From positions 372,001 to 436,000 of the forward strand of contig NZ_CP011125.1 in the NCBI RefSeq assembly GCF_000737325.1: a stretch of DNA of 64,000 nucleotides. Reading direction: 5' to 3'. The notes beneath the pieces are model-generated. The model had not been told where the DNA came from. It saw only the letters and a program-made list of their open reading frames with translations, and ran no database searches. This document shows positions 39,066 through 61,712 of this stretch, piece after piece. Origin of the DNA: Sandaracinus amylolyticus. Its GTDB lineage: Bacteria; Myxococcota_A; Polyangia; Polyangiales; Sandaracinaceae. Numbering within the stretch: position 1 is the stretch's first letter; every line of letters begins with the position of its first letter. The position numbers and the translations under genes were made by a program.

Positions 39066-41444
39066 TCAGCGCGAGATCTGGATCGAGTACGTCGCGCTCG
39101 CGCACTGCGTTGTGTCCGCGACGCGCCGCACCTTGAACACGACGGTCGACGGCCACGGCGACGTGTGGCCCCCGAGGTACGCGGTGTTGCCGCTCGTCTG
39201 GTCGTCGACGAACTGGAACGCCGAGACGCCCGTCGGCATCCCCGCCCCGCAGATCATCGGCGTCGAGCATCCCGTGTAGAAGTCGATGACGAAGTTGCTC
39301 GCCGTCGGGCCCGCGAGGCGGATCCACGGCGTGCCCGCGGTCGGGCCGCGCACGCTCGTCGGGAAGTTCACCGCGTACCAGTCTTCGTCCATCGACGAGA
39401 CGAGCAGGCCGCTCACCATCGTCGTGCCGCCGGGGTTGATGTCGCCGACCGGCGTCGCCGCGGCGCACGCGCCCGCGGACGGATCGTCGAGGCACTCGCA
39501 GCCGTCGCCGTACACGCCGTTGAGGTCGTAGCGCCCGCCCATGCACCCGAACGTGCACGTCGCCGCGCTGCAGGTGTACGTCTCCGCGCCCGGCGCCGAC
39601 GGGCACAGCGACGCGCCGGGCCCGTTGTCCGCGGTGCCGTTGCAGTCGTCGTCGCGGCCGTTGCACGACTCGCTGACCGGCGTCCCCGCGGTGCACGTCT
39701 GCGGCATGCCGTTGATGCACGCCTGCACGTCGCGACGACACTCGCCCATGCCGCACTCCGTGCGCACCGCGGGGCTGTCGAGGTTGTTGCAGCTGCCGGC
39801 GATGTTGCCGGTGCACGTCCCCGGCGTCGGCGCCTGACACTGATCCTGGCAGTTGATCTGCAGCGCACCGCGCGGCTGGGTCGGGCAGATCACGTCGGGA
39901 CTCACGCATGCGCGCGCGCCGTTGCAGACGCCCGCGGCCTCGCTCACGTCCTGGCGGCGATAACACTCGTCGCCCCCGCCGGTGAAGCCGTCGTAGTAAC
40001 CCGCGCACGAGAACCCGGCGCACTCGCCGTCGACGTCGGCGCCCATCGGCACCGGCGTACAGGTGCCCTGGAACCCCGGCAGATCGCACGCCTCGCAGGT
40101 GCCCGTGCACCCGCTGGTGCAGCAGACGCCGTCGACGCACGTGAGCCCGTCCTGGCAGTCCTGGTTGCGCCCGCAGTTGCGGCCGGGCGGCAGGTCGGCG
40201 ACGCAGAACCCGAGGTCGCAGTGCGCCTGAGCGATGCACTCGCTGTCGACGGTGCAGCTCGTCGCGCAGGTGCGCGAGGTCTGGTTCTCGGTGCCGTCGC
40301 AGTAGATCGGATTGTACGGACCGCAGTCGTGCGCGAGCGTGGTGCTCCCGCAGGCGCGATCGTCGGGGATGCCGTCGACCGTCACGCACTGGAACTGCGC
40401 GTTGCACTCGGTCATACCGCGCGAGCCCTGGCAGTCCTCGGCGTCGGTGCAGATGCGCGTCACCGCGCCGCCGCCCGGGCACGTCGCGACGTCGCCGTTG
40501 CAGCACGTGCCGCTCGAGCAGCAGTAGCCGTTGTCGCAGTGCCCCGCGGTGCAGTCGGTGTCCTCGTTGCACGCGCCGCCGTCCGGCACGTCCTCGGCGC
40601 AGGTGCCGTCCTCGCAGTGCGCGCTCGCGATGCAGAACGTGTCGTCGTCGGTGCCCGCCGGCGCGCAGCCCGTCGCGCACGTCGTGCCCTCGTCGCCGCC
40701 CTCGCTGCAGGTGTAGAGCTCGCAGTTCGTGATCGTTCCGTCACCGCAGGTCGCCGACGCGCAGGTGCCGCCTGCGATCGCCGTGTACGTGCCGTCGCCG
40801 TCGTCGGTGCAGCGGCCCGAGTCGCAGTCGTTCGGGTTCTCGTCGACGGTACGGTTGCAGTTCGTGTCGATGCCGTCGCAGATCTCGGTGCGATCCGGGT
40901 GCACCTCGGGATCCGCGTCGTTGCAGTCCTCACCGAGACAGCCGATGCCGACCCCGTATCCGTCGCCGTCCTCGTCGACGCAGCACACGCCGCCGACCGG
41001 CGCGCAGATCGTCGCGTCGACGCCCGTGCCGGTCGCGTCGTAGATGCAGTTGAACGTGCAGCGGTCTTCCGTGGCGTCCGGGGGACACGTCGTCGCGGGG
41101 CACTCCGGCAGGTCCATCACGCAGCCCGGCAGACACGCCCGGCCGGCGCCGTGGGAGAGCAGCGCGCAGTAGCTGCCGATCTCGCAGTCCTCGTTGCGCT
41201 CGCACGACTCGCAGGTGCCGACGGGATCGGGCACCTCCGCGTCGGTGCCGGCGTCGGGCTCGATCCACGCGTCGATCGGGACGAACGCGTCGGTACTGCC
41301 ATTTCCGGCGTCGCCGGTGCCGCCGTCCATTCGGCCACCGTCACGGCGCGGAGGATCTCCGCCGTCTGCGCACCCGGCGATGCCCGCCAGGAGCAGTGGA
41401 CCCAGCACCACCAGCAGGCGAGCGAACGAGCGGACTGGCCCCAT
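39066..41444 (-). CDS. Cysteine-rich lipoprotein with MopE-type metal-binding motif
   Basis: A 792-residue protein from ATG 41444, supported by GGAGGG upstream. The lipobox is IAGC. A Gly/Asp-rich linker precedes many short cysteine-rich units such as CTAGHCDNGYCCSSGTCC. Residues about 135-170 hold a MopE-type motif (DEDGDGYGVGIGCLGEDC, then DADPEV and CDGIDTNCN), with a second truncated copy near residue 600. The C-terminal part is beta-rich and resembles pre-peptidase C-terminal domains (SMDEDWYAVNFP). It is probably displayed on the cell surface. Such proteins are abundant in myxobacteria; the function is unknown. Confidence 0.87.
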   Translation of the reverse strand: MGPVRSFARLLVVLGPLLLAGIAGCADGGDPPRRDGGRMDGGTGDAGNGSTDAFVPIDAWIEPDAGTDAEVPDPVGTCESCERNEDCEIGSYCALLSHGAGRACLPGCVMDLPECPATTCPPDATEDRCTFNCIYDATGTGVDATICAPVGGVCCVDEDGDGYGVGIGCLGEDCNDADPEVHPDRTEICDGIDTNCNRTVDENPNDCDSGRCTDDGDGTYTAIAGGTCASATCGDGTITNCELYTCSEGGDEGTTCATGCAPAGTDDDTFCIASAHCEDGTCAEDVPDGGACNEDTDCTAGHCDNGYCCSSGTCCNGDVATCPGGGAVTRICTDAEDCQGSRGMTECNAQFQCVTVDGIPDDRACGSTTLAHDCGPYNPIYCDGTENQTSRTCATSCTVDSECIAQAHCDLGFCVADLPPGRNCGRNQDCQDGLTCVDGVCCTSGCTGTCEACDLPGFQGTCTPVPMGADVDGECAGFSCAGYYDGFTGGGDECYRRQDVSEAAGVCNGARACVSPDVICPTQPRGALQINCQDQCQAPTPGTCTGNIAGSCNNLDSPAVRTECGMGECRRDVQACINGMPQTCTAGTPVSESCNGRDDDCNGTADNGPGASLCPSAPGAETYTCSAATCTFGCMGGRYDLNGVYGDGCECLDDPSAGACAAATPVGDINPGGTTMVSGLLVSSMDEDWYAVNFPTSVRGPTAGTPWIRLAGPTASNFVIDFYTGCSTPMICGAGMPTGVSAFQFVDDQTSGNTAYLGGHTSPWPSTVVFKVRRVADTTQCASATYSIQISR

Positions 41445-41539
41445 GAAGCCCTCCGGAGCGACGACGAGAGGCATCGTATCCAACGCACCGTTCGATTTCG
41501 AGAGGGTGGCCGGATGTTTTCCACACGACCGTAGTGCCG

Positions 41540-41576: not shown

Positions 41577-42119
41577 ATGCTTCAGCGGCGTCGTTTTCTC
41601 TCCGCGGTCGCGATGGCTCCGTTCGTGTTGTCAGTCGCACCCGGCAGCAGCGCGCGCGCCGATGACCGCGCTGCGCGTCGCCCGCGCGGAGCGACCCCCG
41701 GAGCGACGCCGTCGTCGAGCGCGCCAGCTGCGCCGCCGCCGGCCTCGGAGCTCTCGCAGCACCTCGTGCTCGCGGGCGGCTTCCGCGTGGTGCGCGCGTT
41801 CGGCGTCTACCACGGCGCGCTGCCGTTCGTGCTCGAAGGCGAGGGCCTGCGCTTCCAGATCGACGTGCTGCGTCGTGATGCGTCGGCGTCGACCGGTGGC
41901 GTGTTCGATGGCGAGCACTTCAGTCTGTTCGTGCACGGCCGCGCGTCGGGTGAGCTCGCCGCGACGTCGGAGCGCGGCGCGCGCGCGCTCGGTACCGCGC
42001 TCGAGCGCCGGGTGGCCGAAGGCATGACCGTGCCCGCCCTCGCGACCTTCGACCAGCGCCGCGCGATGGGCGCGGGCACGATCTTCCACGTCGACTACGA
42101 CGTCCCGGCCGCGATCTGA
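41577..42119 (+). CDS. Hypothetical exported protein with Tat-like signal
   Basis: A 180-residue protein. The N-terminus LQRRRFLSAVAMAPFVLSVA resembles a twin-arginine signal peptide. A Pro/Ala/Ser-rich linker (residues 35-60) follows, then a compact domain (LSQHLVLAGGFRVVRAFGVY, FVLEGEGLRFQIDVLRRD, IFHVDYDVPAAI). The family is not recognised. It precedes two radical SAM genes by 26 bases and may be in the same transcript; it could be an export partner or substrate, but no precursor-like repeat is seen. Confidence 0.75.
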   Translation: MLQRRRFLSAVAMAPFVLSVAPGSSARADDRAARRPRGATPGATPSSSAPAAPPPASELSQHLVLAGGFRVVRAFGVYHGALPFVLEGEGLRFQIDVLRRDASASTGGVFDGEHFSLFVHGRASGELAATSERGARALGTALERRVAEGMTVPALATFDQRRAMGAGTIFHVDYDVPAAI

Positions 42120-42145
42120 ACGGAGCGGCGCGGCCGTCCCGCGGT

Positions 42146-43192
42146 ATGCGACGCGCGACGCTCTCGCTCGGAACGACCTGCTCCCACGCGTGCATCGTCT
42201 GCGGGCTGCGCGACGACGCGCCGCGCACCGAGCTCGCCGCGCCGTCGATCGAACGACTGCGCGCGCTGCGCGAGACGTCGAGCGCGATCACGCTCGGCGG
42301 TGGTGAGCCGACGCTCGCGCCCGACGTGCTCGAGAGCGCGGTGCGCGCCGCACGCGACGTCGGGTTCACCGCGATCGGCGTGCACACGAACGGGCACGGG
42401 CTCGCGGCGATCGCGCGCTCGCTCGCGAGCGCCGGCCTCACCGACGTGCACGTCTCGCTGCACGGCGCCGACGCGCGCGTGCACGACTACCACACCGGTC
42501 GCGAGGGCAGCTTCGACGTGCTGTGGAGCGGTGTCGCCGCTGCACGCGCCGCGGGCCTGCGCGTGGTCGCGACGACGGTGCTCACGCGCAGCGACTTCCG
42601 CGTGCTCTCCGAGATCCCGATCCTGCTCCAGGCGCGCGGCGTCGAGGCGTGGCACGTCGCGGTCCCGCTCGCGCGCGGCGCGGCCTCCGACGACTTCGAT
42701 CGTGTCTATCCGCGCCTCGCGCTCGCGCTGCCGTTCGCGCTGCACGCGCTCGAGATCGCGCGCCGCGTCGGCCTCCGCGCGTACGTGAGCGGCGCGCCGC
42801 TGTGTCTGCTCGGGCCGATCGCGTCGCGATCGATCACGACGAGCGCGCGCAGCTTCCACGAGCGCTGCGATGGATGCGCGGCGCGCGAGGTGTGCCCGGG
42901 GCTCGATCCGATCTACCTCGCGCGCTTCGACGGTGACGAGCTGCGCGCGCGCGAGGATCGTCCCGCGAGCGCGGATCACGAGCCCGCCGCGTCGCTCTTC
43001 GTCGGTCCCGGCGAGCTCGCGCCGCTGCGCGCGCGCACGACGCACGAGCCGGTGCAGAGCGCGCGTCGGGCGCTGCCGATGTACGGACGCCCGCGCCGCG
43101 CGAACGCCGAGGTCGCGACGCGCAGCGCCAAGAGCGGCGAGGCGCTGCGCGAGATCCTCCCCGCGCTGTTCGAACGCGAAGAGGACGGCTGA
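42146..43192 (+). CDS. Radical SAM protein with C-terminal CxxC-x5-C motif
   Basis: A 348-residue protein. The 4Fe-4S site is CSHACIVC near residue 12, followed by LGGGEPTLA and the SAM-binding GVHTNG and VHVSLHGADARVHDYHTG. A C-terminal CDGCAAREVCPG motif (CxxC-x5-C-x-G) may bind a second cluster. The last 80 residues are Arg/Ala-rich. The core resembles those of the radical SAM genes at 43192, 46236 and 50749. The stop overlaps the next start (TGATG). It probably acts with the second enzyme on a peptide; the substrate is unknown. Confidence 0.9.
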   Translation: MRRATLSLGTTCSHACIVCGLRDDAPRTELAAPSIERLRALRETSSAITLGGGEPTLAPDVLESAVRAARDVGFTAIGVHTNGHGLAAIARSLASAGLTDVHVSLHGADARVHDYHTGREGSFDVLWSGVAAARAAGLRVVATTVLTRSDFRVLSEIPILLQARGVEAWHVAVPLARGAASDDFDRVYPRLALALPFALHALEIARRVGLRAYVSGAPLCLLGPIASRSITTSARSFHERCDGCAAREVCPGLDPIYLARFDGDELRAREDRPASADHEPAASLFVGPGELAPLRARTTHEPVQSARRALPMYGRPRRANAEVATRSAKSGEALREILPALFEREEDG

Positions 43193-44127
43193 TGGCGAAC
43201 ATCGGATATCTGCAGGTCGTCCGCGGGTGCAACCAGTACTGCCGCTTCTGCTCGAACCCGGCGAGCGGCTACATGCTCGACCTCGACACCGCGCTGCGCG
43301 CGGTCGACGACTTCGCGGAGCGCGGCTACTTCGGGATCATCCTCACCGGGGGCGAGCCCTCGCTCTCCGAGCTGATCCCGGACATCACGAAGCACGCGGT
43401 CGCGCGCGGGCTCCACGTCCGGATGATCACGAACGGATCACGGCTCGCGAAGCCGGGGCTCGCGGAGTCGTACTACGACGCGGGGCTGCGCCACTTCCAC
43501 GTCAGCATCCACTCGTGCGACGAGCAGCTCGAGGACTTCCTCACCGGCGTGAAGGGCAGTCATGCGCTCGCGATGCAGGCGCTCGAGAACCTCGGCCGCG
43601 TCGGCGCGACGGTGAACATCAACACGGTGATCAATCGCTTCAACGCGGATCACCTCGACAAGAACGTCCGCTACTTCGTCGGGCGCTTCCCGTTCCTGCG
43701 CCACTTCGTGTGGAACAACCTCGACCCCTCGATGGGCCGCGCCGAGACCAACCGCGACACCGCGCATCGCCTCGCGGACTTCGAGCTCTCGCTCGCGCGC
43801 GCGCTGCGCTTCCTGCACTCGACCGGGCGCACCTTCCGCGTCGAGCGCGTGCCGCTCTGCTACATGACCGAGTTCGCGCACTGCTCGACCGAGACGCGGA
43901 AGATCATCAAGGGCGAAGAGCGCATCGTGCACTTCCTCGACGAGAAGGGGACGGTGCGACAGACCGACTTCCGCCACCCGAAGAGCGAGGTCTGTCGCTC
44001 GTGCACGCTCGACTCGATCTGCGGCGGCTTGTTCGAGCTGGGCGATCACTACGACCTCGGCGAGCTGCACCCGGTGTTCGTCGATCGCGACGCGATCATC
44101 GCGAAGGTGAAGGCCGACCCGGACTGA
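43192..44127 (+). CDS. Radical SAM protein, partner of the preceding gene
   Basis: A 311-residue protein. The 4Fe-4S site is CNQYCRFC near residue 13, followed by GIILTGGEPSLSE, MITNGSRLA and FHVSIHSCDEQLEDFLTG. The C-terminal cluster motif is CRSCTLDSICGG (CxxC-x5-CGG). Unlike its partner, it has a compact C-terminus. Twin radical SAM genes of this kind commonly occur in peptide-modifying systems such as the His-Xaa-Ser system; the adjacent opposite-strand operon is of this type. Confidence 0.9.
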   Translation: MANIGYLQVVRGCNQYCRFCSNPASGYMLDLDTALRAVDDFAERGYFGIILTGGEPSLSELIPDITKHAVARGLHVRMITNGSRLAKPGLAESYYDAGLRHFHVSIHSCDEQLEDFLTGVKGSHALAMQALENLGRVGATVNINTVINRFNADHLDKNVRYFVGRFPFLRHFVWNNLDPSMGRAETNRDTAHRLADFELSLARALRFLHSTGRTFRVERVPLCYMTEFAHCSTETRKIIKGEERIVHFLDEKGTVRQTDFRHPKSEVCRSCTLDSICGGLFELGDHYDLGELHPVFVDRDAIIAKVKADPD

Positions 44128-44498: not shown

Positions 44499-44669
44499 GC
44501 CCGTCAGTCGTCGGAGAGGCCTTCCGACTGACGCGCGCGCGCGTGCGCGCGAGAAAAAATCACCCGTCGATCCGCGCGCGATCGGCACGGAGATGCGGCC
44601 TCGAGGCAGCACGTTCCGGGGCCGGAAACGGCCTCGAGCGCGGCACGAGGCGTGCGATGCTCGCCGCCG

Positions 44670-46211
44670 ATGTCTCGGACAGCTCGCGGGTGGTGCGCGA
44701 TCGCGCTGGCGCTCGGGTCGGTGGGGTGCAGCGGGCAGCTGGGTGACGACGAGCGCCGGAGCGACGCGGGTCGCGATGCGTCGGCCTCGACGGTGAGCGA
44801 CGCCGCGCTCGACGCGAACGCGCCGGACTCGAGCCCGCCCGACGCCGGTCCGCCGCGCGGGATTCGCCACGAGCGATTCGACGACTACCACGCTCCGGCG
44901 CAGCTCGAGGTCGTCCCTGCGATCGACTTCGTGTGGGACGAGGGCCCGCTGGGCGAGGGCGCGCCGTCGGACTTCGTCTCCGCGCGGCTGACTGCGCTCC
45001 TCACGCCGCCCGCGACCGGCACGTACACGATCGCGACCGAGAACGACGACGGCGTGCGCGTCTGGATCGACGACGCGCTCGTGATCGACGACTGGCGCGG
45101 CCACTTCGTCGAGCGCCACGAGGCGACGGTGGAGCTGAGCGCGGGCACGCCGGTGATGCTGCGCGTCGACTACTTCGAGCTCGATCTCGCCGCGCAGCTC
45201 CGCGTGCTGTGGACGCCTCCCGGAGGCACCGAGTCGCCGATCGACGAGACGCACGCGCTCGCGGTGCCGCTCTCGGCGGAGCTCGCGCCGCCGGCGCCGC
45301 ACTTCGCGAATCCGGTGGTGCCCTTCGACTGCCCGGATCCCGGCGTCCTCGCCGACGAGGGCGCCTATTACATGGTCTGCACGGGAGGCCGATTTCCCAT
45401 CCGTCGCTCGCGCGATCTCGTGCGCTGGAGCGACACCGGTGCTGCGGTGCTCCCGAGCGGCGCACCGCCGTGGGCCGCGAACGGACACCGCAACTGGGCG
45501 CCCGAGCTCCATCGTGTCGGCGATCGCTACGTCGCGTACTTCACGTCGGTGAACGGCGCGAACGTGCTCTCGATCGGCGTGGCGTGGGCCGACGATCCGC
45601 TCGGTCCGTACACCGTGACCGGCGCGCCGCTGGTCGAGCACTCCGACGGAGTGATCGACGGCAACTACTTCCGCGACGACGACGGACGTCACTACCTCTT
45701 CTACAAGATCGATGGCAATGCGCACGGTCGCCCGACTCCGATCTTCGTGCGCGAATTGGCCGCCGACGGACTCTCGTTCGCACCCGGGAGCGTGGCAGTC
45801 GAGGTCCTGCGGAACGACCCACGAACGTGGGAAGGCGGCGTCGCCGAGGCGTCGTGGACGGTGCGTCGCGGCGATTTCTACTATCTGTTCTACAGCGGCA
45901 ACGTCTACGACGGTCGATATCGCACCGGCGTCGCGCGCTCGCGCAGCGTGACCGGTCCGTACGAGAAGCACGGCGCGCCGATCCTCACGAACGACGCGCG
46001 CTGGGTGGGCCCGGGGCACGGCACGGTGCTGCGCGTCGGCGACGAAGACTGGTTCTTCTACCACGCGTGGAACGCCACCGCAGGCGGCGGTCACGACGGA
46101 TCGCGCGGCAGGTTCGGTCTCCTCGACCCGATCACGTGGGAAGGAGACTGGCCGAGGATCGGCGATGGGACGCCCGGTGAGTCGCCGCGCGCGTGGCCGG
46201 GGCGCGAATAG
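44670..46211 (+). CDS. Lipoprotein with PA14 domain and GH43-like beta-propeller
   Basis: A 513-residue protein from ATG 44670. The lipobox is in LGSVGC. Residues about 65-205 form a PA14 domain (TGTYTIATENDDGVRVWIDD, LRVDYFELDLAAQLRVLW). The rest is a five-bladed-propeller glycosidase of the GH43 type: FDCPDPGVLADEGAYYMVC carries the catalytic Asp, HRNWAPELHRVGDRYVAYF, DGVIDGNYFRDDDGRHYLF and WEGGVAEASW the likely Glu. It probably cleaves arabinose- or xylose-containing glycans outside the cell. It lies between the radical SAM groups but seems unrelated. Confidence 0.9.
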   Translation: MSRTARGWCAIALALGSVGCSGQLGDDERRSDAGRDASASTVSDAALDANAPDSSPPDAGPPRGIRHERFDDYHAPAQLEVVPAIDFVWDEGPLGEGAPSDFVSARLTALLTPPATGTYTIATENDDGVRVWIDDALVIDDWRGHFVERHEATVELSAGTPVMLRVDYFELDLAAQLRVLWTPPGGTESPIDETHALAVPLSAELAPPAPHFANPVVPFDCPDPGVLADEGAYYMVCTGGRFPIRRSRDLVRWSDTGAAVLPSGAPPWAANGHRNWAPELHRVGDRYVAYFTSVNGANVLSIGVAWADDPLGPYTVTGAPLVEHSDGVIDGNYFRDDDGRHYLFYKIDGNAHGRPTPIFVRELAADGLSFAPGSVAVEVLRNDPRTWEGGVAEASWTVRRGDFYYLFYSGNVYDGRYRTGVARSRSVTGPYEKHGAPILTNDARWVGPGHGTVLRVGDEDWFFYHAWNATAGGGHDGSRGRFGLLDPITWEGDWPRIGDGTPGESPRAWPGRE

Positions 46212-46235: not shown

Positions 46236-47303
46236 TCAGGCGACCGGGACGAACTCGTCCCAGCCGTAGCGCTTCAGGTAATTGCCCCAGACGCCTTCAC
46301 ACGACTTCTCGTGCTTGCACTGCGCGCATTCGGCGCGCTTCTGGCGCTCGGAGTCGTCGAGATCGGCGCGGCGGATGGCGACGAGCTCGCGCGTCTCGCT
46401 CTGATCCGCGAGCGCTTCTCTGCGTCCCAGGAGCGCCTCCGCGGGCACCAGCTTCTCCGCGTTCGCCGCCGGCTCGTAGTGCACGTAGCTCTCGACGTAG
46501 CCGCGGTTGAAGTCCGGCAGCTTCGTCGTCGTGCAGAGCGGGATGTCGACGAGGAACGCCATCACCCGCGGCTCGGTCTTCGTCTGCTCTTCGAGGAAGA
46601 CGCGCGCGGTCTCCGCGATCTCGGTGTACGTCGGGAAAATGTGCTCGAAGTACGTGTTCGCGCGGCCGTTGGCCTGCATCACGTTGAACACGACCTGATC
46701 GACGCCGTGGGCGCGCAGGAATCGATAGATCTCTCCCATGTGCGGGAGATTGCGCTTCGTGATCACGGTGCTGGTGTGGAGCTCGACTCCATACCGCTTG
46801 TACTTCGTGATCACGTCGAGGCCCGCGACCGTCTGGTCGAAGCTCTCGGGCGTGCGCGTGAGGCCGTCGTGCAGCTTCTGCGTGTGGCCGTGGATGCTGA
46901 CGTAGAAGCGGTTCATCCCCGCCGAGATCAGCATGCGCGCGTACTTCTCGTACGAGAGCGAGCGCCCGTTGGTCATCACGCTGACGCGGCGGATCCCCGC
47001 TTCCTTCGCCCACCGCACCCAGTGCGGCAGTCGCGGGTTCGTCGTCGGCTCGCCCGACGTGAAGCAGATCTCCTCGGCGCCCTTCTTCTGCTCGAGGATG
47101 AACCGCACGAGCGCGTCGTCGGTCTGGCTGTTCGTGACGTAGCGAGCGTCACGATCCTCTTCCATGCAGAAGACGCAGTTGTTGTTGCACACCGCGCCGG
47201 TGAGCACGTGGACGCGCTCGTCCTTGTGCGCGATGCGCTCGTCGATCGAGGTGTGCTCGGCCTCCGCTCTGCTCGACGGAGAGCTGAGCACCGCCTTCGT
47301 CAT
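46236..47303 (-). CDS. Radical SAM protein of the His-Xaa-Ser-type cluster (HxsC-like position)
   Basis: A 355-residue protein. ATG 47303 overlaps the stop of the repeat peptide by one base (TGATG); GGGAG lies six bases upstream. Motifs are CNNNCVFC (4Fe-4S), ICFTSGEPTTNPRL, VMTNGRSLS and FYVSIHGHTQKLHDGLTR. The C-terminus has CAQCKHEKSCEG followed by YLKRYGWDEF. It holds the place of HxsC, the second radical SAM enzyme of His-Xaa-Ser systems. Its direct coupling to the precursor gene makes it the best candidate, along with HxsB, for modifying the repeat peptide. Whether it is orthologous to HxsC needs a profile search. Confidence 0.9.
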   Translation of the reverse strand: MTKAVLSSPSSRAEAEHTSIDERIAHKDERVHVLTGAVCNNNCVFCMEEDRDARYVTNSQTDDALVRFILEQKKGAEEICFTSGEPTTNPRLPHWVRWAKEAGIRRVSVMTNGRSLSYEKYARMLISAGMNRFYVSIHGHTQKLHDGLTRTPESFDQTVAGLDVITKYKRYGVELHTSTVITKRNLPHMGEIYRFLRAHGVDQVVFNVMQANGRANTYFEHIFPTYTEIAETARVFLEEQTKTEPRVMAFLVDIPLCTTTKLPDFNRGYVESYVHYEPAANAEKLVPAEALLGRREALADQSETRELVAIRRADLDDSERQKRAECAQCKHEKSCEGVWGNYLKRYGWDEFVPVA

Positions 47304-47563
47304 CACCAGCTCCCGTGCGAGCCGTGCGATCCGTGGGAGCCGTGAGAGCCGTGGGAGCCGTGAGAGCCGTGAGAGCCGTGGGAGCCGTGCGATCCGTGTG
47401 ATCCGTGCGAGCAGTGCTGCGCCAGCAGGATGTCGTCGCGCGTGTTGGGTTTGGCGAGGTCGGCCTCTTCCAACGCGCGATCCGCGATGGCGCGCTCGGT
47501 CGGGTCCATCAGACCACCCGCATTGCGCCGGAAGCTCGGAAGAACGTCGTCGTCGTCGGCCAT
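47303..47563 (-). CDS. hxsA: His-Gly-Ser repeat peptide, candidate modified precursor (HxsA-like)
   Basis: An 86-residue peptide from ATG 47563 with a perfect AGGAGG site six bases upstream. Residues 1-50 form an acidic, helix-prone leader (MADDDDVLPSFRRNAGGLMD, then ALEEADLAKPNTRDDILLAQ) with no signal peptide. Residue 51 is the only Cys. Eleven Ser-His-Gly units follow, then Ser-Trp. Read in phase, this is a run of His-Gly-Ser, the pattern that defines HxsA, the proposed substrate of HxsB and HxsC. It sits between hxsB and another radical SAM gene. I infer a ribosomally made, post-translationally modified peptide; a metal-binding His-rich peptide is the alternative. Confidence 0.8.
   Translation of the reverse strand: MADDDDVLPSFRRNAGGLMDPTERAIADRALEEADLAKPNTRDDILLAQHCSHGSHGSHGSHGSHGSHGSHGSHGSHGSHGSHGSW
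47312..47410 (-). repeat. Eleven 9-base units encoding Ser-His-Gly
   Basis: His is always CAC, while Ser uses TCG, TCA, TCC and TCT and Gly uses GGA, GGC and GGG. Such synonymous variation shows selection on the peptide rather than very recent DNA expansion. Confidence 0.95.
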
Positions 47564-47599
47564 GCCCCGCCTCCTACCGCTCCCAGGGAAAGCACCCGC

Positions 47600-49207
47600 T
47601 CACGGCGTCCGTGAAGCGTCCGCGCCGAGTGTACTACTAGACGTCCCCTGGATGAAATGGGCTCGCGGTCGGTTCGTCGTCCAGCGGCGGAAGACCTCCA
47701 TCGTGCCGGGGTCGGCATCGGCGATCTTCTCGAACAGATAGTCCTGGATTCCCTTGTGGACCGCGCAGACGCTGCTCTCGCGCATCCGCCCGAAGATCGT
47801 CCCCTGGGTCTTGTGGCTGTGGCTCGGGGCGACGCCGCAGTACGGCTGATACGCGCAGTTCACGCAATCGGGGCGCGCGTCGAGGTTCCCCGCGAGCACC
47901 ACCGCGCGCACCGTCTCGTGCCCGACGAGGCCGCGGTACGTCGCGTCGTTCACGTGGCCGAGCAGGAACGTGTCGTCGCCGGTCTCGTGGAGCATGCGAC
48001 CCTCGTCGCACGTGAAGATCGAGCCGTCGTAATTGTAGGCGAGCGCACCGATGCCCGCGCCCGACGGGCTGCGGATGTCGAGGAAGTTCGGGTCCTCGCC
48101 GCTCAGGATCTTCGTCAGGAAGATCGCCGCGTAGCGCTCGAGCACCTGAACGCCCTTCAGGTTCAGCTCGACCATGTAGTCGACGCACTTGCGGTAGTAG
48201 TCGAGGTACTCGGCGCGCGGGTACTCGAGGCGCGGGCCCGTCTTCTCGGCGAAGCCGAAGGGATCGAGCGGGCGCAGGAAGAGCGCGCGGCAGCCGAGGT
48301 CGACGTACTGATCGACCACTTCCTTCCAGAGCGGCAGCGTCTCGCGCGTCGTCGTGAGCAGCGCCTCGACGCGGTAGAGCGTCGTGTCGAGGCCGAGCTT
48401 CGCGTACTCCTCGTTGATGCGTCGGATCCACTTCACCGACGCTTCCCACGACGAGCCGCCGGTCTTGGTCCCGTCGGCGAGCTTGAGCGCAGGCAGCTTG
48501 CGCTGCTTGTCGTGCAGGCCCTGCGGGCCGTCGATGCTGGTGCAGATCTGGACGCGGTTCTCGAGCAGGAAGGCCAGCTTCTCCTCGTCCATCAGCGAGA
48601 GATTGCTGACCATCGTGAACTCGAGCGTCTTGGCCTCGCCACTCGCCGCGAGGCGCTCGTTCTTCTTCCGCGCGTACTCGATGACGTGCTTCACGACCGC
48701 GAAATTCACGAGCGGCTCGCCGCCCTGGAATTCGATCGTGATGCCGGGGCTCGTCGACGAGAGCGCGATGTCGACGCACTTCTCGGCGATCTCCGGCGTC
48801 ATGTCGGTGTGCACCGCGTCCATCGCGGCGCGCGACGCGTGGCAGTAGACGCACGTCTCGTTGCAGCGGAGCGTGACCACCAGCATGTGGAGGTTCGGCC
48901 CGTAGCCGACGAACGACTTGCGACGTCGCAGCGCGTCCGCAGCGCGCTTGGTGTCGTAGTGCGCGCGGAGGAAATTGCCTTCGCGCAGGCGCGCGTGGAG
49001 CTCGCTCTCGGGCGCGACGTTGCCTTCGACGAACGCGCGGAATTCGGCGTCCGCGAGCACGAGGAAATTGCCCTCGAGGTTCGTCAGCAGCACGCGCTGC
49101 TTCGGGAGCGCGCGATAGCGGAAGAACGCGGGGAACGTGGCCGAGGGGCGCAGGCCGCGCAGCGGGAACGCGCCGGGCGGGAGCTGCGAGTCGAGGGTAT
49201 CCGTCAC
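47600..49207 (-). CDS. hxsB: His-Xaa-Ser system radical SAM maturase HxsB
   Basis: A 535-residue enzyme; GTG 49207 overlaps the preceding stop (GTGA). An N-terminal domain of about 110 residues ends in VGYGPNLHMLVVTLRCNETC, where the 4Fe-4S motif CNETCVYC begins. IEFQGGEPLVNF follows. The C-terminal SPASM region carries the clusters FTCDEGRML, CVNCAYQPYCG and SVCAVHKGI, with HKTQGTIFGRMRES between. Length, motif order and the GRMRES segment agree with the HxsB family as I know it. It should modify the His-Xaa-Ser peptide encoded 36 bases downstream. The chemistry is not established for this family; three-residue cyclophane formation, as done by related SPASM enzymes on aromatic-x-x motifs, is a reasonable guess. 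Confidence 0.85.
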   Translation of the reverse strand: MTDTLDSQLPPGAFPLRGLRPSATFPAFFRYRALPKQRVLLTNLEGNFLVLADAEFRAFVEGNVAPESELHARLREGNFLRAHYDTKRAADALRRRKSFVGYGPNLHMLVVTLRCNETCVYCHASRAAMDAVHTDMTPEIAEKCVDIALSSTSPGITIEFQGGEPLVNFAVVKHVIEYARKKNERLAASGEAKTLEFTMVSNLSLMDEEKLAFLLENRVQICTSIDGPQGLHDKQRKLPALKLADGTKTGGSSWEASVKWIRRINEEYAKLGLDTTLYRVEALLTTTRETLPLWKEVVDQYVDLGCRALFLRPLDPFGFAEKTGPRLEYPRAEYLDYYRKCVDYMVELNLKGVQVLERYAAIFLTKILSGEDPNFLDIRSPSGAGIGALAYNYDGSIFTCDEGRMLHETGDDTFLLGHVNDATYRGLVGHETVRAVVLAGNLDARPDCVNCAYQPYCGVAPSHSHKTQGTIFGRMRESSVCAVHKGIQDYLFEKIADADPGTMEVFRRWTTNRPRAHFIQGTSSSTLGADASRTP

Positions 49208-49431
49208 TGCGCGGCTCCCGTCTTTCGAGCTTGGATGGTCAGACCGAGCGCGTAATTGCCGAGCTCGCGCGCGACGCGCTGGGCGCGACCGGGGCGCGCG
49301 CTCGCGATGCGCAGCACGACGTGATCGCCTTCGTCGCCGCGCGTGATCTCCGCGTGCGTGGCGTAGAGCCCGACCGCCTGATCGATCGCGCTCGCGAGAT
49401 AGAGCTCGCGATGGAGGCGCAGCTCGCTCAC
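49204..49431 (-). CDS. Small HxsD-like protein
   Basis: A 75-residue protein; GTG 49431 overlaps the previous stop and its own stop overlaps the hxsB start, both as GTGA. The sequence LYLASAIDQAVGLYATHAEI and the end ELGNYALGLTIQAR resemble a shortened HxsD, whose family is named after a LLNDYxLRE motif. It may be a second adaptor that presents the peptide leader to a radical SAM enzyme. I infer the relation from pattern only. Confidence 0.65.
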   Translation of the reverse strand: MSELRLHRELYLASAIDQAVGLYATHAEITRGDEGDHVVLRIASARPGRAQRVARELGNYALGLTIQARKTGAAQ

Positions 49432-49949
49432 GTCGCGCTCCCCTCGTCGCCGGGCTTCGCTGCAGCCTCCGGAGAACCGAGCGCGGGCGCGGCGGGCTCG
49501 TCCTTCTTCTTCTTGTACTTCTCCTCCCACGAGAGCCCGATGCCGAGCGGGTCCTCGAAGGGCTCCTCGGAGAAGTCGAAGTCCTTGAGATCGTCGAGCG
49601 TCGGCGGGCCCATCGCGCCGGTCACGGCCTGCAGCGTGACGGCCTCGATCACCGCGCGGTTGTCGCGCACGATCTGCGAGCGCCACGCGCAGCTGAGCAG
49701 CTCGTTCTGGAGCTCGCCGACCCAGCTGCGCAGCTCGCTCTCGCTCGCGGCCGCGTTCTTCGGCGTGAGCGTGATGCGCACCCGCGACGCGGTGCGATCG
49801 AGCAGCACGTAGCAGCGATCGAGGAACGTGTAGGCCGCGCCGTACACCGCGTCGAGCGGGTAGAGGGACTCGTCGATCGTCACCGTCACTGCGTGCGCCG
49901 ACACGTCGGCGTCGACCTGATCCGAAGGCATCCCTGCGAGCGCGCCCAT
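49428..49949 (-). CDS. hxsD: HxsD-like protein
   Basis: A 173-residue protein from ATG 49949 with GGAGG four bases upstream. The first 115 residues resemble HxsD: ESLYPLDAVYGAAYTFLDRC, a strand-rich middle (VRITLTPK), then ELQNELLSCAWRSQIVRDN where the family has LLNDYxLRE. A Lys/Pro-rich tail of 60 residues is added. HxsD occurs only with HxsB/HxsC and is thought to be an accessory, maybe a peptide-recognition protein. Confidence 0.7.
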   Translation of the reverse strand: MGALAGMPSDQVDADVSAHAVTVTIDESLYPLDAVYGAAYTFLDRCYVLLDRTASRVRITLTPKNAAASESELRSWVGELQNELLSCAWRSQIVRDNRAVIEAVTLQAVTGAMGPPTLDDLKDFDFSEEPFEDPLGIGLSWEEKYKKKKDEPAAPALGSPEAAAKPGDEGSAT

Positions 49950-49993: not shown

Positions 49994-50752
49994 CTACAGC
50001 GAGCCGCGCAGCAATGCGTCGAGGGTGGCGTCAGCGAAGGCGGGGGTCGGTGACTCGCGGGTCGCGAAGTAACCGCCGACGAACATCCGATGGCCCGCAC
50101 GGCGCAGCGAGTGTGCTGCGTGCCACGTGCACTGCTCTAGCAGTACGGCGGTGCCGGCAGTGGGCCGGAGCACCACCTGACCCGGCCAGTCCCGCGCGAG
50201 CGTGTCGTGCGACGGCGTGGTGGGGTCGCCGACGCGACGAGGGAGCACCAGCAGCGGCCCGCCGTCGTCGTCGAGATCGTCGAGGTAGACGACGACGATG
50301 ACGCGCTCGACCGTCGGCTTCGCAGGCCAGCGCTTCGCACGCATGCGCGTCCACTCCTCTTCGCCGTCGATGTGCGTGTGCCAACCGAAGAAGGGCCGCA
50401 TCCGATCGCTCACCGCCGCGCCGAGCGCCTCGAGACGCAGGTCGTCCCCGAGCAGCGCGCGCAGCGGCGAGAGCAGGCGATCACGGAGCAGCAGGGGCGC
50501 GATCTCGGGCGCGACGTGCTGGAGCCCGGTGATCGTGAGCCCTGTCGGTGTGAGCACGAACGACGCGGCGATCTCGGGCCGCGCGACGGTGACCGACGAC
50601 GGCGCGTAGAGCTGCTCGGGCGCCACCGCGTGGACGAGCCGTTCGAGCGAGCTCCGCGCGCACGCGATCTCGGCGGCCGAGAGCAACCCCGGGATCAGCG
50701 CATACCCTCGCTCACGAATGGCCTCGGCGACCTGCGTCGACGCGACGCTCAT
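49994..50752 (-). CDS. PhyH-like 2-oxoglutarate/Fe(II) dioxygenase
   Basis: A 252-residue protein. ATG 50752 overlaps the radical SAM stop (ATGA). Iron ligands are H and D in GWHTHIDGEE and H in CTWHAAHSLR; an Arg for 2-oxoglutarate follows in GHRMFVGGYF. It belongs to the phytanoyl-CoA dioxygenase superfamily, which hydroxylates or halogenates small molecules and natural products. It is related to the two at 54744 and 55510. The substrate may be the peptide or a separate small molecule of this cluster. Confidence 0.87.
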   Translation of the reverse strand: MSVASTQVAEAIRERGYALIPGLLSAAEIACARSSLERLVHAVAPEQLYAPSSVTVARPEIAASFVLTPTGLTITGLQHVAPEIAPLLLRDRLLSPLRALLGDDLRLEALGAAVSDRMRPFFGWHTHIDGEEEWTRMRAKRWPAKPTVERVIVVVYLDDLDDDGGPLLVLPRRVGDPTTPSHDTLARDWPGQVVLRPTAGTAVLLEQCTWHAAHSLRRAGHRMFVGGYFATRESPTPAFADATLDALLRGSL

Positions 50753-52092
50753 CCCTCACGCCTGCTGCCTCGTCCTCGCACCGAGCCGGGGCCGACCATG
50801 CCTTTGCGAAGGTCGAGCATCATGTTCCCCGGATCGCGCGCGACGATCGCCCGCGCCGCGGCGTGCACGATCTTCGTGAGGGTCGCGTGATCGTCACCGC
50901 GTGCGTTGCGGTAGTGCAGGTTGAACGACTTGCTGCGCGCGAGCGCGGGAGCATCACCGTCGCGCGCGGTGAGCACGATGTCGACCGACGATGCACCGTG
51001 CGCGAACCGGTACACGCAAGCGCGCCGCTGGACGACGATCTCCGTGAGCGCCGCGCCGGTCTCGCCGTCGACGCCCGCGACGAGCGCAGCCCATCGCGGC
51101 TGGTCGATCGCCGGCGCGTGACCGCCGGCGGACTGCTCGGAGCCGACCCACGGGCCGTACTCGGGCTCTTCCCACGGTGTCGTGCGCGGGTGAGGCGTGA
51201 GCGCATCGCGCTCCCAGCCGTGCTTCGTGATGTACGCGTGGTGCAGGCCGAGGCACGACTCGCCGTGCTCGCACTTCGCCTCGTAGAGGCACGCGAATTT
51301 CGGATACTTGTCGTAGAACTCCTCGACGATCACGACGTCGGCCTGCGTGTTGTCCTGCGTGCGCTCGTGCTCGCCGAGGAGGCATCGCGGGACGTACTTC
51401 ACGGCTGCGTCGATGCCGTGTCTGCGGCAGCTCGCGAGCGCGTCGCGCAGCCGCGGCGCGAGCGTGGACATCGGCGCGATCAGATCACGCTCGTCCGCGT
51501 AGTCCTCCATCGGCAGGTAGTTCCACCACTCCATGCGCGCCGGGCGGAAAGGGCGAACGGTCTCGACGATGTCGGCGAGGTGCGCCTGGTTGAGCGTGGT
51601 GAGCACCGTGTTCGTGATCAGCGTCGCGCCGAGCTCGACCACGTTCGAGATCCCGCGCATCGCCTCGTCGAAGCTACCCGGGCGCTGCGAGATGAAGTCC
51701 TGCGTCGCGGCGTCGTGGCCGTGCAGCGAGACGAAGAGCTCGTCGACGCCCGCGCCGATCAGGGCCTTCGCATAGCTCCGGTCGGCGAGGCGGCGCCCGT
51801 TCGTCTGCACGCGGATGTGCTCGAAGCTCTGCGACGCAGACGCGACGGTGACGTAATCGAAGAGCTTGCGCTCGAGCGTCACCTCTCCGCCGGTGAACGT
51901 GATGCGCCGGTATCGCCGGGTACGCCGGTTGTCCTCCACGGCGCGTTCGTACACGTCGAAAGGGACTCCTTTGTAGAAGTTCATCCCTTCCTGGACGATG
52001 CAGAACCGACAGGCGCTCTGACAGTGGAAGTCGACCGTGACCGTCAGATCCTCGAAGCGCGTCGGATCGAACCGTCCCTTGTAGCTCTGCAT
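50749..52092 (-). CDS. Radical SAM protein with added C-terminal domain
   Basis: A 447-residue protein. ATG 52092 overlaps the previous stop (TGATG). Motifs: CQSACRFC, ITFTGGEVTLE, VQTNGRRLA and ELFVSLHGHDAATQDF. After the core comes CLYEAKCEHGESCLGLHHAY and KHGWE, much like the end of the 46236 protein. An extra 120 residues follow (about 325-447), with LARSKSFNLHYRNARGDD; this part seems to be shared with the B12-type radical SAM proteins of the cluster. The function is probably peptide or small-molecule modification; the substrate is unknown. Confidence 0.89.
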   Translation of the reverse strand: MQSYKGRFDPTRFEDLTVTVDFHCQSACRFCIVQEGMNFYKGVPFDVYERAVEDNRRTRRYRRITFTGGEVTLERKLFDYVTVASASQSFEHIRVQTNGRRLADRSYAKALIGAGVDELFVSLHGHDAATQDFISQRPGSFDEAMRGISNVVELGATLITNTVLTTLNQAHLADIVETVRPFRPARMEWWNYLPMEDYADERDLIAPMSTLAPRLRDALASCRRHGIDAAVKYVPRCLLGEHERTQDNTQADVVIVEEFYDKYPKFACLYEAKCEHGESCLGLHHAYITKHGWERDALTPHPRTTPWEEPEYGPWVGSEQSAGGHAPAIDQPRWAALVAGVDGETGAALTEIVVQRRACVYRFAHGASSVDIVLTARDGDAPALARSKSFNLHYRNARGDDHATLTKIVHAAARAIVARDPGNMMLDLRKGMVGPGSVRGRGSRREG

Positions 52093-52985
52093 CAGAGCGT
52101 CCCGTAGTAGCTCGACTTCGGATATTCGAGCGTGCCGTCGGGCGCTCGTCGATAGTCGATACCGACGTCGAAATAGAGGTGCTCGAGCCGCTCGCGCTGC
52201 TGCCGCACGAAACCACGGATCGCTGCAGGGTACGCGAACCTGTCGAGGAACCAGATCAGCTGCTCGACGGTGATCCCGCTGTAGTAGATCGCGTCACAGC
52301 GACGCTTCTTTGCGATGCATACCTTCTTGCAGGCGAAGAGCTCGGGGAGGAGGACGCGCGAGAGCACGCGCGGGTCGGAGTAATCGACGAAGAGGCTGCT
52401 CGTGAGCAGCGAGAGCACGTCATCGACTTCACGCTTCGGTTCCATGAAGCGGTAGGTGTTCTCGAGCTCGGCTGTGCCGTCGCGCAGCTTGTACGAGCGG
52501 CCCGCGTGGGCCCTTTCGCCGGTGAGATACAGGTTCAGCTCGCGCACTTCTCCGTCGGCGATCGTCTGCGGAGAGACGTCGAAGCTGACCATCATGTACG
52601 GCACGGTCTCGCGGACCTGCGGGACGATGCGCATCCACGGCGAGAGCGCCGCGGCGATGCTCGTGATGGTCGCCTCGGGCGACTCCTTCTGCGGATCGTA
52701 GAAGTAGAGCTCCCACCAGAGCTGCGTGCCGTCCCACTTCACGCCCCAGACGGTGAGGTCCTGGCCGACGTGGCGCTGGACCGCCTCGAGCGGCGCGCGC
52801 AGGGCCGCCGTGGCGCCGCCGACCGCGAGAGAGTGCCAGAGCAGGTTCTCACCGCGGATCTTGCCGGGCCACGGACGACGCGGGCGGTAGGGCTCGAGGC
52901 AGTAGTCGAAATGACGATCGTGCTCGGTCGCGGGCACGAGCTCGAACGAACGGAGCAGCGTGTGAGGCTCGACGAGGTTGGGCAC
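52092..52985 (-). CDS. Unrecognised protein in the radical SAM/PhyH operon
   Basis: A 297-residue protein using GTG 52985; no Shine-Dalgarno site is seen, and 85 bases separate it from the upstream gene. Aromatic-rich strands dominate the first half (VWGVKWDGTQLWWELYFYDP, YMMVSFDVSP, LNLYLTGERAHAGRSYKL). The second half is helical, with two cysteines close together in ELFACKKVCIAKKRRC, and ends DVGIDYRRAPDGTLEYPKSS. I do not recognise the family. A strand-rich fold of the prenyltransferase (ABBA) kind is one untested idea. Its tight position before a radical SAM gene suggests a partner or substrate-handling role. Confidence 0.8.
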   Translation of the reverse strand: MPNLVEPHTLLRSFELVPATEHDRHFDYCLEPYRPRRPWPGKIRGENLLWHSLAVGGATAALRAPLEAVQRHVGQDLTVWGVKWDGTQLWWELYFYDPQKESPEATITSIAAALSPWMRIVPQVRETVPYMMVSFDVSPQTIADGEVRELNLYLTGERAHAGRSYKLRDGTAELENTYRFMEPKREVDDVLSLLTSSLFVDYSDPRVLSRVLLPELFACKKVCIAKKRRCDAIYYSGITVEQLIWFLDRFAYPAAIRGFVRQQRERLEHLYFDVGIDYRRAPDGTLEYPKSSYYGTL

Positions 52986-53070
52986 GTCAGTTCGGGAGAC
53001 CGCGTCGAGGCTATCACGAGCCGCTCCACGACGTCGCGCGCAGCGCGATGCGCGTCGGCGCGCGTTCGGA

Positions 53071-54747
53071 TCATAGCGCGCGGCGCAGGTCGTCGAGCGT
53101 CGTGGTCCCGAGCCGCACGGCGATCTCGTCGATCGCGCGGAGCAGGTGTGGCGGCGCTTCGCGTCCGCGGTACGAGATCGCGACGTGCTGCGACGCGCGA
53201 TAGTACGGCGAGCCGTCACGAGGTCCGAGGACGATGCGTTGCCGCGGGAGCCGTGCTGCGGCGTCGTCCAGCTCGAGGACGAGCGTGCCACGCTCCTCGC
53301 GCACGGTCTCGAGGCGCATCCCCTGCGTGGTCGCGCCGGGTGGCGCGAGCCCGAGCAGCGCTGCGAGCGCCGTGCTCGCTCTGCGCGGCGCGTGAGGGAT
53401 CTCGACGGGTCGCGCGCGCGTCGGCGCGTCCGCCTCGCGCGACGCTGCGCGCACGAGATCCGACTGGAGCTCGGCGAGCTCTCGAAAGGTGTCGTTCCGC
53501 TCGCGCTCGTTCATCGCCGAGGGAACACGCGGCGCGGGAAGGTCCCAGTCGTCGAAGCGCTCTCGCGCCGGGTCGGGCCAGCGGTCCGTCGAAGCCTCGC
53601 CGAGCACGGTGCCGGGCAGCGCGTGGTAGGTCGACCACATGAACGAGCCGGGGCGCAGCTTGCGCAGCAGCGCGACCGTGGAGTGGGCTTGCGCGCGCGT
53701 CTCGCCCGGGAGCACCGTCATCAGCGACGCGCTGGTGCCGAGGCCGACCGCGCGCGCGTCGTCGAACACGCGCTGGAGCACGACGTCACGGGTCCGCCGA
53801 TGCAGCACCTCGCGGCGGAGCTCCTCGTCGCCGGCCTCGACGCCGCAGTGGAAGAGCACGCATCCGGCTTCCTTCAGCAGCTCGAGCCGCCTGCGGCTGG
53901 CCGCGCTCGGGTGCATCTCGACCTTGAAGGGCAGCGCGACGCGCCGCGGGTACTCCTTCGCGAGCGCGTCGAGCCACTCGAGATCGATCGGGAAGTGCTC
54001 GTCCCAGAATTCGAAGCCGTCGGGGGCGTAGCGGTCGCGCAGTCGCGAGAGCTCGTCGCAGAGCTGCGCGACCGGGATCACGTTTCGCCGTGTCTCGAAC
54101 GCGTGGAGCTTCCCCCAGCGCGGCGCCGAGCAGTACGAGCACGTGAACGGACACCCACGGCTCGCGCGCGTCGGCAGAAAGCGATCGACGTGGGGACCGA
54201 ACGTGTTGATCCCGCGCGCGAGGCTCGCCCGCAGATCGCCGAACACGTCGTAGTCCCACGGGAGCAGCGCCGCGATGTCGGGCTCGGGATCCGCGCTCGG
54301 CGGCGGGCCCGTGAAGCCGTCGGGCCCTCGCACCCACAAGCCGGGGATCGAGCGCGTGGGTCTGCCCGACGGGAGCTGATCGAGCAGCGCGCGCAGCGGG
54401 CGCTCGCCTTCGCCGATCGCGATCGCGTCGACGGACGCGCAGCGCGCGACGTCGTGGGGCGCCATGCTCGCGTGGTATCCGCCGACCACCACGTACGCTG
54501 CGATCCGCGGTACCACGCGGGAGAGCAGGGTCTGTGCGCCGGGCCAGTCGCGGCTCATCGCGGAGACGGCGAGCACGTCGGGCGAGAGCGACTCGATGCG
54601 CGCCGCGACCTCGTCGATCTTGCTCCGCAGCGAGACCTCGAGCGCGCTCGCCTCGTGACCGGATGCGCGCACGACGGCCGCGAGGGCGGCGACCGAAGGG
54701 CTGAAGGGTCGCGGCGGATCGGTGAAGAAGAGGAAGAGGACCCTCAT
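53071..54747 (-). CDS. B12-binding-type radical SAM protein
   Basis: A 558-residue protein. ATG 54747 overlaps the previous stop (ATGA) with GGAG upstream. Residues 1-150 look like a cobalamin-binding Rossmann domain (VLFLFFTDPPRPFSPSVAAL, VVVGGYHASMAP). The radical SAM core starts at RGCPFTCSYCSAPRWG, with DGFEFWDEHFPIDLEWL after it and HCGVEAGDEELRRE. Class B enzymes of this kind are usually methyltransferases or catalyse other rearrangements. About 100 C-terminal residues (VREERGTLVLELDD, YYRASQHVAISYRGREAP) form a domain also found in its neighbours. Confidence 0.9.
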   Translation of the reverse strand: MRVLFLFFTDPPRPFSPSVAALAAVVRASGHEASALEVSLRSKIDEVAARIESLSPDVLAVSAMSRDWPGAQTLLSRVVPRIAAYVVVGGYHASMAPHDVARCASVDAIAIGEGERPLRALLDQLPSGRPTRSIPGLWVRGPDGFTGPPPSADPEPDIAALLPWDYDVFGDLRASLARGINTFGPHVDRFLPTRASRGCPFTCSYCSAPRWGKLHAFETRRNVIPVAQLCDELSRLRDRYAPDGFEFWDEHFPIDLEWLDALAKEYPRRVALPFKVEMHPSAASRRRLELLKEAGCVLFHCGVEAGDEELRREVLHRRTRDVVLQRVFDDARAVGLGTSASLMTVLPGETRAQAHSTVALLRKLRPGSFMWSTYHALPGTVLGEASTDRWPDPARERFDDWDLPAPRVPSAMNERERNDTFRELAELQSDLVRAASREADAPTRARPVEIPHAPRRASTALAALLGLAPPGATTQGMRLETVREERGTLVLELDDAAARLPRQRIVLGPRDGSPYYRASQHVAISYRGREAPPHLLRAIDEIAVRLGTTTLDDLRRAL

Positions 54748-55517
54748 CGGCGCTCCGGCACGCCGGCGCTGTACGCGCGGGCAAGCTCGGCGGACCCAGC
54801 GAGGGCGGCGGGGATCGTCGGGTCGCGACGGCGGGACGCGGGCGCATCGGCGCGCGTGACGAAGAACGCGATGAAGGCGCGCAGTCCTTCGCGCTTCATC
54901 GGAGTGACGGCGTGCCACGTCGGCTGATCGAAGAAGACGATGCTGCCTGCAGGCGCGCGCAGCTCGACGCAGCCGGGCCAGGGCTCGCTGCCCGGCGGGC
55001 GCGGTGGCGCGGTGGGCTCTCCCACGCGGCGAGGCCACACGAGCATCGTCCCGTGCGCATCGTCGAGCGGGCAGAGATACGTCGTGCACACGATCCGCTC
55101 GATCCTGTCGATCGGTGGGTACGTGCCGCGCACGTCCTCGCCGTCGATGCCGCCGACGTGGTGGTGCCAGAAGAAGAACGGTCGCGTGTGATCGGAGACG
55201 ATCCCGGCTGCGAGCTCGAGGCGCGCGCGCGGCCCGAGCAGCGTCTCGACGACGCCGCGGACCTCCGGCAGCAGCGCGATGTGCGCGGCCTCGGGGATGG
55301 GCTCGAGGATCCCGTACATCGCCATTCCCACCGGGCTCACGTGGACGCGCTCGCCGATGCTCACGTCGCGCTGCGAGAAGAGCTTGGGCGCACCGTGCGC
55401 GCGCCATTGCTCACGCATCTTGTCAGCCAACGTCTCGACGAGATGCTCGGGGACGGCCCCTTCGATCACGGCATGCCCTTGGGTCGCGATGCGGTGCGCG
55501 ACGTCGTGCTCACGCAT
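54744..55517 (-). CDS. PhyH-like dioxygenase
   Basis: A 257-residue protein. ATG 55517 with GGAGG eight bases upstream is preferred over GTG 55544. The iron site is seen as FFFWHHHVGGIDGED (H...D) and WHAVTPM (second His). It is a paralogue of the proteins at 55510 and 49994; all share the WHxHxxGID-like signature. It overlaps both neighbours (8 bases with the upstream gene, 4 with the downstream). Confidence 0.87.
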   Translation of the reverse strand: MREHDVAHRIATQGHAVIEGAVPEHLVETLADKMREQWRAHGAPKLFSQRDVSIGERVHVSPVGMAMYGILEPIPEAAHIALLPEVRGVVETLLGPRARLELAAGIVSDHTRPFFFWHHHVGGIDGEDVRGTYPPIDRIERIVCTTYLCPLDDAHGTMLVWPRRVGEPTAPPRPPGSEPWPGCVELRAPAGSIVFFDQPTWHAVTPMKREGLRAFIAFFVTRADAPASRRRDPTIPAALAGSAELARAYSAGVPERR

Positions 55518-57989: not shown

Positions 57990-57996
57990 GACGAGA

Positions 57997-58026
57997 ACCG
58001 TAGGATTTTCATGTCGTGAGGGTCAA
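57997..58026 (-). promoter_or_regulatory. Promoter of the radical SAM/PhyH/Hxs operon
   Basis: On the minus strand TTGACC (58026-58021) and TACGGT (58002-57997) are 18 bases apart; the -10 ends seven bases before GTG 57989. This matches the layout of the promoter before 41577 (TTGACG-18-TACCTT-7-ATG). Confidence 0.6.
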
Positions 58027-58045
58027 GAGAGACCCGCTCCTCCGA

Positions 58046-59833: not shown

Positions 59834-59886
59834 GGTCCGTGGCGTCCGTGTCCCTGCGCGAGAGGCTACACTCGCGAGCGACACGA

Positions 59887-60876: not shown

Positions 60877-60880
60877 ACGA

Positions 60881-61708: not shown

Positions 61709-61712
61709 GACG

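Follow-up and report, generated by a model that had tools for sequence, protein, structure and literature searches.

The window analysed here, a stretch of 64,000 nucleotides from Sandaracinus amylolyticus, contains an operon of five genes between positions 46236 and 49949, all of which lie on the minus strand:

49428..49949, minus strand: HxsD accessory protein (TIGR03976, 52.2 bits, cut-off 50)
49204..49431, minus strand: HxsD-like accessory protein (NF038315, 64.7 bits, cut-off 41)
47600..49207, minus strand: HxsB, radical SAM/SPASM maturase (TIGR03978, 533 bits, cut-off 370; best PDB relative 5wgg)
47303..47563, minus strand: HxsA4 precursor peptide, 86 aa (NF038313, 102.5 bits, cut-off 55)
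47312..47410, minus strand: HxsA4 core of eleven Ser-His-Gly units with His-Cys before and Ser-Trp after (read from the sequence; coordinates counted from the ATG at 47563)
46236..47306, minus strand: HxsC4, radical SAM protein (NF038332, 631 bits, cut-off 500)

The initial annotation had described these as five coupled genes of a His-Xaa-Ser peptide-modification system. Both the gene coordinates and the assignment are borne out: in a profile search with the HxsA/B/C/D families, the products of all five genes (HxsD, HxsD-like, HxsB, HxsA4 and HxsC4) exceeded the curated NCBIfam cut-offs, among them that of the gene at 47600, whose identity as HxsB the assignment depended on. The same five genes make up the HxsA4/HxsC4 subtype in NCBIfam (NF038313, NF038332, TIGR03978, TIGR03976, NF038315), and by these profile matches the operon is a member of this annotated subtype. 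Neighbouring genes overlap by 4 bp (GTGA) at three of the four junctions (HxsD/HxsD-like, HxsD-like/HxsB and HxsA4/HxsC4). HxsB and HxsA4 are separated by 36 bases, and the peptide gene is preceded by the motif AGGAGG at 47570-47575, six bases 5' of its ATG. HxsD and the HxsD-like protein are homologous to each other (hhalign, probability 95.8). The N-terminal 110 residues of HxsD are modelled with confidence as a compact alpha/beta domain; a Foldseek search with this fold reached E 0.02 at best, to a Pcc1/DCoH-like arrangement, and gave no functional lead. That HxsB carries an RRE in its N-terminus is a guess, as the PDB profile search for such an element returned only E 0.15.

The HxsA4 peptide of the window consists of a 49-residue leader followed by HC, eleven SHG units and SW. 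The Gly-only repeat, the lone Cys and the final Trp had been noted as departures from HxsA; compared with 96 precursors from 94 genomes, all three turned out to be standard traits of the described HxsA4 subfamily. In these precursors, which were accepted only with at least four consecutive SHx so that rare substitutions may be under-counted, 1384 of the 1409 units starting with S[HLQ] read SHG, 20 SHA and 5 SHS. All six Ser codons and all four Gly codons are used within the repeats, and the mean difference between neighbouring units is 2.1 nt, with identity in only 13%. As the SHG units are near-invariant while all synonymous codons occur, the repeat is kept by selection at the protein level and not by recent DNA slippage or chance. 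The first unit follows His-Cys in most precursors, while a few have the Cys replaced by Gly or Ala, and all complete precursors (91/91) end in HGSW or HGQW. The number of units ranges from 5 to 49, some precursors being cut by contig ends; a same-genus relative has 13. In two loci (L131 and L232), the core is very long, with 41 and 48 HxS units; the repeat number is thus loosely constrained. With classical HxsA (TIGR03979) the system shares HxS repeats, HxsB and HxsD. However, the window peptide scores only 26.1 bits against the classical model, whose cut-off is 121.7, and it differs in its pure SHG repeat and in the lack of a hydrophobic segment, which lies ahead of the repeats in the classical-type precursors of three loci (L141, L142 and L144). 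Outside Myxococcota, a locus of an Elusimicrobiales MAG (L067; 1418-1732, minus strand) encodes an HxsA-like peptide that has a hydrophobic segment, ends in SHGQW and adjoins relatives of HxsB and HxsD.

Although the five genes are real and coupled, the set had been drawn too small. By clustering the ORFs around HxsB in 68 loci, we identified a further, convergent operon at 41577-44127 that the initial annotation had overlooked:

41577..42119, plus strand: TatP, 180 aa, twin-arginine signal, proposed export escort (invariant RR in a 19-row alignment; no named family)
42146..43192, plus strand: rSAM_a, HxsC-like radical SAM protein (best NCBIfam match HxsC, 90.5 bits, below the cut-off of 268)
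43192..44127, plus strand: rSAM_b, HxsC-like radical SAM protein (HxsC, 89 bits, below the cut-off; present in nearly every genome with HxsB)

The usual neighbours of HxsB in the 68 loci are HxsD, HxsD-like and HxsC-like proteins together with a recurring small protein bearing a twin-arginine signal. HxsD is found near HxsB in 47 of them, and in several rSAM_a adjoins the TatP gene. In one genome (G236) the corresponding operon stops 16 bases from HxsA4; in the window, the two are separated by HxsC4 and a gene with GH43 and PA14 domains. The latter gene (44652-46211) lies between HxsC4 and the rSAM_b operon, and a relative of it is likewise placed in the same-genus genome (L071). In contrast to the NCBIfam HxsA4/HxsC4 set, TatP belongs to no family and rSAM_a and rSAM_b stay below the HxsC cut-off. 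Searches of TatP against Pfam and NCBIfam returned generic TAT-signal models only. The twin arginine and the following hydrophobic stretch are present in 19 of 19 aligned rows and in 19 of 20 further sequences from a profile search, and beyond the signal about 100 residues of the protein form a conserved domain. A fold search with TatP reached a Foldseek E of 0.55 at best, and none of the re-aligned hits exceeded a Z of 4.7 (RseB).

We then determined the distribution of these genes across 379 Myxococcota genomes, given here as raw counts that ignore relatedness. HxsA4 was found above its cut-off in 115 genomes, HxsB (at E 1e-60) in 126 and HxsC4 in 52, 34 of these above cut-off. All 52 genomes with HxsC4 also have HxsB, though the two are often far apart. 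HxsB is likewise present in 99 of the 104 genomes with TatP and in 116 of the 122 with rSAM_b, the exceptions being mostly incomplete genomes; conversely, TatP and rSAM_b are missing from a few genomes with HxsB. One genome that is 93% complete (G140, locus L301) has TatP beside rSAM_b and no match to HxsB, and perhaps harbours a divergent relative of the system. TatP lies within 15 kb of HxsB in 56 genomes and not so in 42. The co-occurrence is thus seen with and without linkage and cannot be put down to proximity alone. Linkage and co-occurrence thus suggest that the system extends beyond the five genes to TatP, rSAM_a and rSAM_b. Within the libraries and the open literature searched, TatP and the near-universal rSAM_b are new additions to the known His-Xaa-Ser kind.

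The leaders of the HxsA4 precursors themselves differ with regard to export. In 22 genomes they contain a segment that is hydrophobic and free of charges and that as a rule follows EEGK(I/V)T. A twin arginine is kept in this cis segment in G330 (TRRDF...), G002 (TRRNF...), G272 and one of the two precursors of G098; the remaining segments have RK, RG, RS or KK in its place, and most cis signals, being devoid of RR, might use Sec. TatP is absent from all 22 genomes with such an export-like segment and present in 70 of the 72 others in which a precursor was read, where the classes were set by cut-offs together with our own reading of the leaders; a hydrophobicity cut-off of 1.4 places two TatP genomes in the cis class as well, one of them through an upstream start that is implausible. 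TatP is missing from two of the genomes without a cis segment: G158, at 88% completeness, and G357, where the contig stops shortly after rSAM_b and where, judging by the relatives G236 and G294, TatP would be expected to follow. At the level of families, seven have the cis signal, 19 have TatP and none has both. The leaders of one TatP-containing family (f24) align with the cis signal, its hydrophobicity being replaced by charges (FLSSEEGKITRKQAAQISTFLLMAG compared to FLSSEEGAISEKQEERVSTFLTLSG), as if the cis signal had decayed where TatP is present. In locus L222 (G330), the HxsA4 precursor bears a Tat-like signal of its own (TRRDFVETSASLLLLGAGASLLGGG), and this genome has no TatP and no match to rSAM_b.

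On a tree of HxsB from 84 genomes, the cis signal requires three changes and TatP four. Only one change is forced by well-supported branches, the paired test yields one supported independent pair, and the number of independent switches between cis signal and TatP lies between one and four. Because the changes on this tree are few, the genome counts are not independent, and genome-based Fisher values overstate the association. The trade-off between cis signal and TatP is therefore suggestive, being consistent throughout but based on few evolutionary events.

We propose that these genes form a His-Xaa-Ser system of the HxsA4 subtype that matures and exports its peptide. The export signal would lie either in the precursor in cis or on TatP as the carrier of a hitchhiking peptide. 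We assign this reading a probability of roughly 0.5. In its full form, which we put forward more tentatively, HxsA4 would be a radical-SAM-modified ribosomal peptide and a Tat hitchhiker on TatP as its dedicated escort, the signal having shifted between precursor and escort during evolution. Within the cytoplasm and with the leader as guide, HxsB and the HxsC-like enzymes, aided by HxsD and its paralogue, would modify His and/or Ser side chains in every His-Gly-Ser unit; the finished peptide would then leave this compartment. In some lineages its export would be driven by the hydrophobic or Tat-like signal of the precursor itself; in others, including that of the window, the signal-less peptide would ride out through the Tat translocase bound to TatP. 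HybOC and PaoABC are established examples of hitchhiker export through Tat (PMC4273604), and Tat transports folded proteins (PMC6708511). By this reasoning, the pathway would suit a crosslinked peptide; Tat export, if true, would in turn imply that HxsA4 is folded or crosslinked before it exits the cell. The likeness to the known pairs is that a signal-less cargo would travel with a partner bearing the Tat signal, with the difference that in this system a small peptide modified by radical SAM enzymes would be carried. TatP has no homology to the hitchhiker partners and gives weak matches in the signal region to MelC1 only. MelC1/MelC2 is a further Tat hitchhiker pair.

Alternatively, TatP may be the outside partner of a peptide that has arrived by another route, serving it as periplasmic binding protein, receptor or processing factor. 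Co-occurrence and adjacency fit this role equally well, and so does the conserved domain that TatP has in addition to its signal; however, it leaves unexplained why TatP is absent exactly where the precursor has an export segment of its own, and we consider it rather doubtful. The pattern of cis signal and TatP could also reflect ancestry only, with two early-diverged subtypes that differ in many ways and no functional trade-off between them. While the small number of independent switches on the HxsB tree is in line with this explanation, the TatP rows form two separate clades, the cis rows split into more than one group, and G330 belongs to a class whose other examined HxsA4 genomes have TatP. 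The placement of the long branches (G330, G002 and G009) is unsure. We regard ancestry alone as rather unlikely.

With respect to the chemistry, His and Ser are the obvious targets of modification, as they are the constant residues of the core. By analogy with cyclophane-forming SPASM enzymes, the initial annotation had suggested that each His is crosslinked to its Ser. In favor of such a crosslink, HxsB is of the SPASM type, and His and Ser are strictly repeated around a variable position occupied by Gly, Ala or Ser. However, HxsB reached 104 bits against the profile of nif11, 99 against PapB, 87 against SCIFF and 65 against AnSME, compared to 33-45 bits against the cyclophane models YhhB, DynA, GrrM, XyeB and AmcB, all below the respective cut-offs (310-450). 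By profile score, HxsB thus stands closer to SPASM enzymes of the thioether, sactipeptide and sulfatase-maturase types than to these cyclophane enzymes. Its best PDB relative, 5wgg, bears no more specific annotation there than radical SAM protein; we take it to be the thioether-forming enzyme CteB. Among characterised enzymes, the thioether SPASM enzymes (the SCIFF maturase CteB, and PapB) provide both the closest profiles and the closest structure to HxsB. A Cys thioether in each HxsA4 unit is nevertheless impossible, as the core contains at most one Cys. The profile scores together with 5wgg weaken the cyclophane analogy and still leave room for the crosslink itself, for which, moreover, our search of the open literature returned no chemistry of HxsA, HxsB, HxsC or HxsD; we see a His-Ser crosslink as possible, though on balance questionable. 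Modification of Ser (or His) without a crosslink, for instance if Ser were oxidised to an aldehyde or acid in the manner of sulfatase maturases, would yield a metal-binding or reactive polymer. This is suggested by the matches of HxsB to anaerobic sulfatase-maturase profiles and structures, but these mostly reflect the shared radical SAM/SPASM fold; we judge it rather improbable. The loss of 2 Da per unit that had been put forward as support for crosslinks would fit a crosslink and the oxidation of Ser to an aldehyde alike, so that mass loss cannot separate the two. Poly-His-Gly-Ser would bind metals even when unmodified, and the peptide might accordingly be a plain His-rich metal binder, with the radical enzymes acting elsewhere; the tight linkage and co-occurrence of the precursor with HxsB, HxsD and several radical SAM genes render this very unlikely. 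Metal binding as the role of the exported peptide is a guess.

His-Xaa-Ser systems are widespread in bacteria and have for years been known by annotation alone. The wider list of parts, with rSAM_b being near-universal and TatP present in the signal-less class, indicates which genes to co-express and that the product should be sought outside the cytoplasm.

Further genes border the two operons. Next to the TatP operon, the opposite strand encodes a protein of 805 aa (39066-41483) that contains a putative metal-binding motif of the MopE type (PF11617). On the other side, the genes for a PhyH protein (49994), a radical SAM protein (50749) and a 399-aa ORF (52092) adjoin the five-gene operon and were considered as members of the system, but were rejected as the relatives retrieved for comparison, the same-genus genome among them, have no counterpart at this position. 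They belong to a different cluster directly upstream of the operon (49994-63593), which comprises PhyH-like dioxygenases (49994 and 55510), B12-binding radical SAM proteins (53071 and 56295), the radical SAM protein at 50749, which is HxsC-like, the orphan ORF at 52092, and the sugar genes for an epimerase (59431), a GT2 protein (60881) and a DegT aminotransferase-methyltransferase fusion (61713). This may be a natural-product or glycan cluster.
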